Assembly (NCBI GenBank): GCA_002787355.1
Contig: PCWN01000001.1
Coordinates: 77,838 to 117,115, forward strand
DNA: 39,278 bases
Direction of reading: 5' to 3'
Source: Candidatus Magasanikbacteria bacterium CG11_big_fil_rev_8_21_14_0_20_39_34
Lineage (GTDB): Bacteria; Patescibacteriota; Patescibacteriia; Magasanikbacterales; UBA922
In this document: positions 6,435 to 7,536 of the stretch, one piece after another
Layout: each line of letters starts with the position of its first letter
Position numbering within the stretch: position 1 is the stretch's first letter
Notes under the pieces: generated by a model
Database searches by the model: none
What the model saw: only the letters and a program-made list of their open reading frames with translations
What the model was told of the DNA's origin: nothing
Program-made: the position numbers and the translations under genes

Positions 6435-6502
6435 TAACTCCTCTACCTTCTGTAAACACGTATCAGTATATAATGAAGTTTTTAAAAAATCAAGAAATAA
6501 AA

Positions 6503-6928
6503 AAACGGCCCGTCCCCTAAGGCTTGATAGTATATGGGAGGGCCGAAGATGATTCCAAAGGTGCCGCATCCCATCTGGTTACCTTCAAGTATTTGAAGAC
6601 ATTCAGATAGGAGACAACAATCCTTTTGGATCAGGGATTAACATCTTTGCCACTTTGGTGGTAGTATTCTCGGTGCGTCATATAAATATGGCGCTAAATG
6701 GGTGAGAACTACCAAACTCGGACTCTTGTTTCGCTCTATGAGCGTATTTTTTTTGCTTTTATTTTTGTTTTCCGCTTCTGTGAGCTATTTGGGGCTCAGC
6801 AGCTTACGCCGCACAGAAGCAAAAGGAGAGTCCGATAAAGAAAGCAGTCAAAGATGTAAGTCTCTACAACCGGGGATATTTCCCCAGGAAAGACAGTGTT
6901 GTAAAGATCTCTTCTTACTTGATCTTAC
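6503..6928 (-). ncRNA. Candidate structured RNA of about 425 nt
   Basis: No convincing protein gene fits this stretch, yet the minus strand has a near-consensus promoter (TTGACA-N17-TATTAT) and a terminator with T7. The predicted transcript is almost fully paired. In order: ACAAC...GTTGT around a GGGGA/TCCCC hairpin; TCGGACTC...GAGTCCGA enclosing CTTCTGTG/CACAGAAG and CGCTC-ATA-GAGCG; TGGTAGT...ACTACCA; CCAC-CAAA-GTGG; ATCC-AAAA-GGAT; ATCTG...CAGAT around CTTCAA/TTGAAG; then the terminator stem. I looked for RNase P RNA, tmRNA and SRP RNA signatures and saw none. The family is unknown. Confidence 0.5.
6506..6545 (-). terminator. Terminator of the candidate structured RNA
   Basis: Stem CGGCCC (6506-6511) / GGGCCG (6540-6545), extended inside by CCC/GGG. 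On the minus strand it is followed by TTTTTTTATTTC. Confidence 0.75.
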
Positions 6929-6934
6929 CTTTAT

Positions 6935-6963
6935 ATAATAGCACAATTTACCGTTTTTGTCAA
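6935..6963 (-). promoter_or_regulatory. Promoter of the candidate structured RNA
   Basis: Minus strand -35 TTGACA (6958-6963), 17-bp spacer, -10 TATTAT (6935-6940). Among the best promoters in the window. Confidence 0.8.
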
Positions 6964-7135
6964 TATCTCTTATTTTTATCTTAAATTAGATAAAAAATAT
7001 AAAATTTGCTCTAAAAAAAGTATAGATTAGTGTATACTTTTATTTTTTTTATTCCATACTTTTTAATATTTATCCACAGTTAGTGGATATTATCCACAGG
7101 TTTATCCACATTGTATAGACTAGTCTATACAAAAT
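6964..7135. other. Candidate replication origin (DnaA boxes plus AT-rich stretch)
   Basis: Three perfect, same-direction DnaA boxes TTATCCACA lie at 7070-7078, 7090-7098 and 7102-7110. To their left is about 100 bp of very AT-rich DNA (6964-7069), which could serve as an unwinding element. To their right is a perfect palindrome (7111-7132). rpmH-rnpA-yidD, classical near-origin genes, are about 2 kb away. dnaA is not in the window. A second DnaA-box cluster lies at 20999-21081 beside parS sites, so which one is the working origin cannot be decided from sequence alone. Confidence 0.55.
7111..7132. repeat. Palindrome family copy 1 (core GTATAGACTAGTCTATAC)
   Basis: 22-bp perfect palindrome, one base after the third DnaA box. 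The 18-bp core recurs exactly at 21028-21045 and with one symmetric base change at 19236-19253. A degenerate copy is at 7020-7037. Confidence 0.7.
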
Positions 7136-7194
7136 TGGTTCTTTTATAGCATCCGCTTGTGTGATACTCTGTAGATAACTGACGGGGCGTGGAC

Positions 7195-7536
7195 ATGGAC
7201 TGTTACAGGACAGAGATTGGAATATTCTACTACTGCCTCATTCCAGGGCACGACGGCGGTCATCGGGTGCTCGTCTGTGCCAGTCGAGAAGACATCTACA
7301 ATGATGACTGGGTAGACTCCTTTCTGGCTTCTACACGCAGTGAAGTCATCGAACAGTTGGCATGGCTTCTTACGGATGACGCTTTTCAAACCGAATCGGA
7401 TGATCTGGGGGAGGTCGCCGATTGGTGGCAAGAGTGCATTCTTGACTTCTGGTCCAGACATGCCGCGAAGAGCCATTCGCACCCATACCACTTTGTTCCC
7501 GGAAGCATCCGACCCCACCCCAAACCAAATCAGTAG
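7195..7536 (+). CDS. Hypothetical protein, GC-rich orphan
   Basis: No family recognised; soluble, 113 aa. Tryptophan and acidic residues are frequent (DDWVDSF, VADWWQECILDFW), with His/Pro-rich residues at the C-terminus. The ATG at 7195 lies seven bases after GGGG (7184-7187); a GTG at 7189 in the same frame is less likely by spacing. The gene starts about 60 bases beyond the candidate origin palindrome. I see no good -35/-10 pair. The hairpin at 7574-7588 followed by T6 ends it, facing comM. Confidence 0.6.
   Translation: MDCYRTEIGIFYYCLIPGHDGGHRVLVCASREDIYNDDWVDSFLASTRSEVIEQLAWLLTDDAFQTESDDLGEVADWWQECILDFWSRHAAKSHSHPYHFVPGSIRPHPKPNQ

Follow-up and report, generated by a model that had tools for sequence, protein, structure and literature searches.

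The window analysed here, a stretch of 39,278 nucleotides on contig C7 of a Candidatus Magasanikbacteria genome (1.18 Mb, 99% complete), carries on its minus strand a gene for a structured RNA of approximately 425–430 nt that, judged by comparison with known families and with its own homologues, is a new RNA family; it does not belong to any Rfam 15 family tested, nor is it a variant of one. Compensatory base changes in this RNA exceed those in shuffled and slid controls, and a covariance model located it at the expected place in genomes that had been held out of the model. The original prediction of a structured RNA with its own promoter and terminator is strongly supported by these results, and it passed both sequence-based checks that could have refuted it, the Rfam search and the analysis of covariation, while its placement next to a candidate replication origin is only partly borne out. 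The features of the locus, in the direction of transcription, are the following; all are on the minus strand except the first, which has no strand.

7020–7130, control or origin-like region with the palindromes GTATAGATTAGTGTATAC (7020) and GTATAGACTAGTCTATAC (7113) around DnaA boxes
6935–6963, minus, promoter TTGACA-N17-TATTAT with extended −10 (TGcTATTAT); expected transcript start at ~6928; a counterpart lies upstream of dksA in relatives
6499–6928, minus, the whole structured RNA gene, supported by fold, covariation and covariance model, with no ORF conservation
6901–6928, minus, 5' leader hairpin GTAAGATC / GATCTTTAC, from the fold; in relatives, GUUCUUUA or GAUCAUUA occupies this place
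6860–6894, minus, H1, 5' hairpin GTCTTTCCTGGGGA / TCCCCGGTTGTAGAGAC, from the fold; relatives have a hairpin at the same place
6844–6852, minus, conserved junction ...UUUGACUGC, consensus CUUUUUACUGC, from the alignment
6826–6836, minus, 5' arm of the long-range stem H2, ATCGGACTCTC, from the arm-swap test
6768–6824, minus, variable hairpin within H2, TTTTGCTTCTGTG / CACAGAAGCGGAAAA, from the fold; relatives differ in length and sequence
6758–6770, minus, A-rich linker AAACAAAAATAAA, conserved in sequence more than any other element
6717–6727, minus, 3' arm of H2, AAGAGTCCGAG, from the arm-swap test
6835–6828 with 6725–6718, minus, core pairing of H2, TCGGACTC with GAGTCCGA
6657–6716, minus, H3 domain: GGTAG/CTACC (H3a), TTCTC/GAGAA (H3b) and the apical hairpin AGCGCC..GACGCA (H3c)
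6642–6661, minus, CCACCAAAGTGGCAAAGATG, site of the conserved GAGCGGUAGAAGG motif, from the alignments
6619–6639, minus, H4, AATCC/GGATT hairpin, the loop of which, GATCCAAA, is able to form the pseudoknot H6
6569–6613, minus, H7, CTCCTATCTG/CAGATGGGA with inner CTTCAAATACTTGAAG; 78–85% paired, every pair changing on both sides
6551–6561, minus, 3' arm of H6, CCTTTGGAATC, which matches the H4 loop by complementarity and would form a pseudoknot or an alternative helix with it
6499–6545, minus, H8, rho-independent terminator that makes up the 3' stem, a GC-rich hairpin with 7 T; relatives keep the inner stem and an A/U-rich loop
6023–6379, minus, dksA/traR-like gene P0001, downstream of the RNA and used as synteny anchor; promoter-like sites lie between the gene and the RNA terminator

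The promoter, for which no strand had been given, is present on the minus strand, matches the consensus at 11 of 12 positions in addition to the extended −10 TG and has the top score within the region scanned. The same promoter form, TTGACAAAAACG...TTTGTGCTATTAT, also precedes ordinary protein genes in relatives (L010, 1501–1530; L013, 1501–1529) and thus represents a general consensus of the family that is not specific to the RNA. The predicted T7 terminator was likewise found, at 6545–6499, and the interval originally proposed ends 4 nt short of its end. In family f4, the terminator stem H8 is paired in 96.7% of cases, with double changes at 6 of 7 pairs. On sequence evidence, the RNA gene has its own strong promoter and its own terminator. 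The transcript of the minus strand folds with −154.4 kcal/mol compared to −108.6 ± 5.5 kcal/mol for shuffled sequences (z = −8.35), and the fold of the plus strand is weaker (z = −5.16). That the interval holds no credible protein gene was also correct, as the longest ORF on the transcript's own strand comprises 25 amino acids and 25 homologues share no conserved ORF. Downstream of the RNA, genes similar to dksA/traR, lspA, rpmH, rnpA and yidD, named from their translations, follow on the same strand. On the other side, an ORF of 115 codons (MDMDCYRTEIGIFYYCLIPGHDGG..., 7189–7536, plus strand) is located between the DnaA boxes and a comM/yifB-like gene.

Within the family, the elements of the RNA are arranged in the order UUCAUUA/GUUCUUU leader, hairpin, CUUUUUACUGC, H2, A-rich linker AAACAAAAAYAAA, H3 domain, GGUAGAAGG, H4/H6/H7 domain and terminator. 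The A-rich strand is predicted to be unpaired inside the domain closed by H2, and 12 of the 25 family members as well as 11 of 26 loci of other orders contain the exact linker sequence AAACAAANANAAA, which is rare in shuffled sequences. H3b and H3c are paired in 80–89% with changes on both sides, whereas H3a and H4 are only 55–60% paired on the alignments, so that their registers are provisional and alternative pairings may apply. A possible pairing of ACCCAG in the terminator loop with an upstream CUGGG was discarded, since the covariation, judged by eye, was inconsistent. Some natural variants lack whole elements: the closely related loci L038 and L050 carry a short hairpin in place of H2, and the H4–H7 domain is missing from L033 and L054, which are identical at dksA. 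H2 and the H4–H7 domain may therefore be dispensable modules.

For the analysis of covariation, 20 family members were aligned with plain MAFFT (alignment A1). Since RNAalifold found just one helix on the raw alignment, a structure was drawn up manually by inspecting the sequences one by one and tested afterwards. In A1, 74% of the cells were paired compared to 58.1 ± 1.2% after shuffling, and 161 cells with double changes were counted compared to 70.2 ± 7.0 in shuffled alignments (0/500) and 50–59 when the structure was slid by 1–3 columns. With 32 model-fitted matches, 279 double-change cells stood against 107 ± 9 after shuffling and a maximum of 88 after sliding. G-U pairs were frequent among the pairs kept in these matches, which favours an RNA over a DNA cruciform. 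Independently of alignment columns, we compared the pairing of each 5' arm with the 3' arm of its own genome and with those of other genomes. For H2, this arm-swap test gave −14.2 kcal/mol for own and −9.1 kcal/mol for swapped arms within the family, a difference reached in 0 of 20000 permutations, and the long-range TCGGACTC/GAGTCCGA stem of the original prediction is thus a real helix. The H4–H7 domain yielded a similar result (−14.9 versus −10.6 kcal/mol, 0/20000 permutations), as did H2 in family f4 (−21.3 versus −15.3, 0/20000), and in other orders own arms of H2 paired with −24.9 compared to −22.5 for swapped arms (341/20000).

A BLASTN search with the RNA against 46 genomes of the family returned no true homologue, but just look-alikes of the promoter or of A-rich sequence. 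Homologues were instead located by searching for the dksA-like protein and reading the sequence upstream of its gene, and in nearly every family genome with an intact locus a promoter of the same kind was found 450–650 nt before dksA. A covariance model built from 20 family sequences (R1) and applied genome-wide within the order matched 36 of the 46 family genomes, 16 of which had been held out of the model; wherever a held-out match shared a contig with dksA, it was located just upstream of this gene (13/13). Ten family genomes remained without a match to R1, at least two of which carry a diverged or shortened RNA (L032 in G003 and L033 in G014). R1 gave no match in the 40 genomes that belong to the order but not to the family, yet most of their dksA loci have a promoter ~380–580 nt upstream and the same layout. 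Fourteen sequences from family f4 aligned well and shared GGUAACCCC..GGGGU..UACC, AGCGGUUGG and the terminator with 6 of 7 pairs covarying. A second model (R2), built from the f4 sequences alone, detected the RNA at the right place in family f1 (L032, 2.5e-9; L041, 5.4e-6; L046, 4.2e-5) and at the f7 locus L129 (1.3e-5). Across the class, R2 matched only f4 and one other genome and, as R1 found nothing outside its family, wider homology was traced by synteny. Of 26 dksA loci from other orders of the class that were read by eye, 17 showed the same architecture, and R1 or R2 produced weak but correctly placed matches in L144, L148, L153, L160 and L147. The E-values of single models at the level of the class are weak (1e-3 to 3e-5) and come close to the 0.005 of a probable chance match in an unrelated locus. 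The comparisons show that structure and place of the RNA, rather than its sequence, are conserved across the family and the order, and conservation across the whole class is likely, in part from the reading by eye. The RNA has escaped notice because its fast sequence drift defeats BLAST even within the family, whereas helices and place are kept.

At the curated cut-offs, the only Rfam 15 matches anywhere in the window were two tRNAs, and ARAGORN likewise reported nothing but two tRNAs. Searching the RNA interval at E ≤ 10 yielded no more than a miRNA match attributable to chance (E 2.5) and a UTR element that lies outside the RNA (E 9.5), both with scores far under the Rfam cut-offs. The 16 homologous loci, searched at E ≤ 0.5, gave nothing but a tRNA and a miRNA beneath the threshold, neither of them within the RNA. 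The description of the RNA as undescribed has thereby held up: its novelty at the level of the RNA family follows by elimination against the families of Rfam 15, and the partly accessible literature on ncRNAs of Patescibacteria contributed nothing relevant. RNase P RNA and tmRNA resemble the new RNA as structured RNAs of similar size, but their signatures are missing here, as originally noted. Both identities were rejected, with no Rfam match at this locus and with the genes for RNase P RNA (C3:221–632, 175 bits, RF00010) and tmRNA (C11:71252–71647, 118 bits, RF00023) located elsewhere in the genome. The broader kind, large structured bacterial ncRNAs of unknown function, is already known. OLE, GOLLD and ROOL are large, ornate bacterial ncRNAs that were shown to form homo-oligomeric complexes (PMC12286853). 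The RNA described here shares with them a length of hundreds of nucleotides, several helical domains, a gene of its own and an unknown function, but differs in having no Rfam match to any of the three, in its occurrence in Patescibacteria, where DnaA boxes and dksA are its neighbours, and in its A-rich linker AAACAAAAAYAAA.

Taken together, the RNA is probably an independent, stable and trans-acting structured ncRNA of ~425 nt, and several other explanations have to be weighed against this. It is very improbable that the RNA is a strongly diverged version of a known housekeeping RNA such as that of the signal recognition particle (SRP; RF00169 / RF01854). This identity was raised since the genome has no recognisable SRP RNA, so that a housekeeping RNA seems to be missing, and it was dropped once the SRP GTPases turned out to be missing as well: no SRP GTPase motif was found in this genome, and of the 86 genomes of the order, 85 gave no match to an SRP54-type GTPase (Ffh/FtsY) in a search that was positive for all 14 controls. 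Consequently, an SRP RNA would have no Ffh as binding partner. The domain IV motif is absent from the RNA and Rfam reports no SRP match, and the presence of RNase P RNA and tmRNA elsewhere speaks against the other housekeeping RNAs, so that the proposal is largely refuted. The apparent absence of the signal recognition particle from this genome and its order is notable in itself. 6S RNA regulates RNA polymerase by mimicking an open promoter; it binds the sigma70 form of the enzyme, serves as template for pRNA and is built as a single long rod that opens into a central bubble. A 6S-like polymerase regulator encoded beside the gene of another polymerase-binding regulator, the dksA/traR-like gene, would agree with the strong promoter, the size class of housekeeping RNAs and the conserved neighbourhood, and both are stand-alone bacterial RNAs. 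However, RF00013 matched neither the interval (E ≤ 10) nor the 16 homologues (E ≤ 0.5), and in contrast to the single rod with central bubble, the new RNA has about twice the length and several domains with a probable pseudoknot, which makes this explanation rather unlikely. The constant position upstream of dksA and the inclusion of the terminator in the conserved structure could point to a cis-acting, riboswitch-like leader or attenuator, the terminator of which controls the dksA-like gene. In three loci, however, another gene lies between the promoter and RNA on the one side and dksA on the other, namely an ORF similar to superoxide dismutase (L123), one similar to membrane proteins (L119) and another ORF (L120), and the RNA is therefore not simply the leader of dksA. 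In other families, including f4, a separate consensus promoter is usually found directly before dksA, so that promoters separate the terminator from dksA in most loci outside the family, and the window contains promoter-like sites at this position too. Intervening genes and promoters together identify the RNA as its own transcription unit, and we regard control of dksA in cis as unlikely.

The remaining alternative is that the hairpins are a DNA element of a replication origin, active as single-stranded DNA or as replication primer, and not a functional RNA. Three TTATCCACA DnaA boxes (7070, 7090 and 7102) are located upstream of the RNA promoter, and together with the palindromes directly upstream they recur in relatives, many of which have similar sites upstream of the RNA with DnaA boxes often spaced 32 bp apart. 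The palindrome GTATAGACTAGTCTATAC, including variants, occurs in five copies in the genome stretches scanned, four of which are in the window (7020–7037, 7113–7130, 19236 and 21028), and the first two of these flank the DnaA boxes. On the other hand, dnaA with its own cluster of DnaA boxes (C7, ~57.4 kb) and the contig's minimum of GC skew (55.2 kb) are ~27–29 kb distant from the RNA (84.3 kb). For this reason, the position next to the origin is unproven: the DnaA boxes at 7070–7110 argue for it and the ~29 kb to dnaA and the GC-skew minimum against it. Contig C7 thus has two clusters of DnaA boxes, one upstream of the RNA and one beside dnaA, and either could be the origin. Control of the RNA by DnaA is an alternative to an adjacent origin. 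As an explanation for the hairpins themselves, origin DNA is hardly probable, given not only the distance to dnaA and the GC-skew minimum but also a promoter that points away from the boxes, frequent G-U pairs among the conserved pairs and a structure that is bounded by a conserved promoter and terminator.

Returning to the independent ncRNA, which would probably serve as scaffold of a ribonucleoprotein, sequence comparison shows as its covarying domains the 5' hairpin, H2 closing a domain with the A-rich strand AAACAAAAAYAAA, H3 closed by GGU..ACC and followed by the GGUAGAAGG motif, H4/H6 as probable pseudoknot, H7 and the terminator stem. The RNA would fold during transcription, persist as a long-lived molecule and act as core or scaffold of a particle made of RNA and protein or of RNA alone. 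A role as trans-acting particle scaffold, in which the A-rich strand and GGUAGAAGG would provide the docking sites, is suggested by size, structure and conservation, and we consider it fairly likely. The DnaA boxes and palindromes upstream may couple expression of the RNA or its gene dose to the replication cycle.

Few RNA genes are shared by an entire large branch of bacteria, and those that are usually prove to encode central machines such as RNase P, tmRNA, SRP and 6S RNA. To our knowledge, very few RNAs have been described from Patescibacteria. It is conceivable, although doubtful, that the RNA is essential throughout the class and possibly throughout the Patescibacteria, that it forms a new kind of particle with dose or transcription tied to DnaA, and that it might partly replace the SRP in lineages that have apparently lost it. 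The covariance model makes the RNA family searchable, and the conserved A-rich strand and the GGUAGAAGG motif are concrete targets for pulldown experiments and structural work. From the conservation described here, Patescibacteria probably possess a basic RNA machine that has hitherto not been described.
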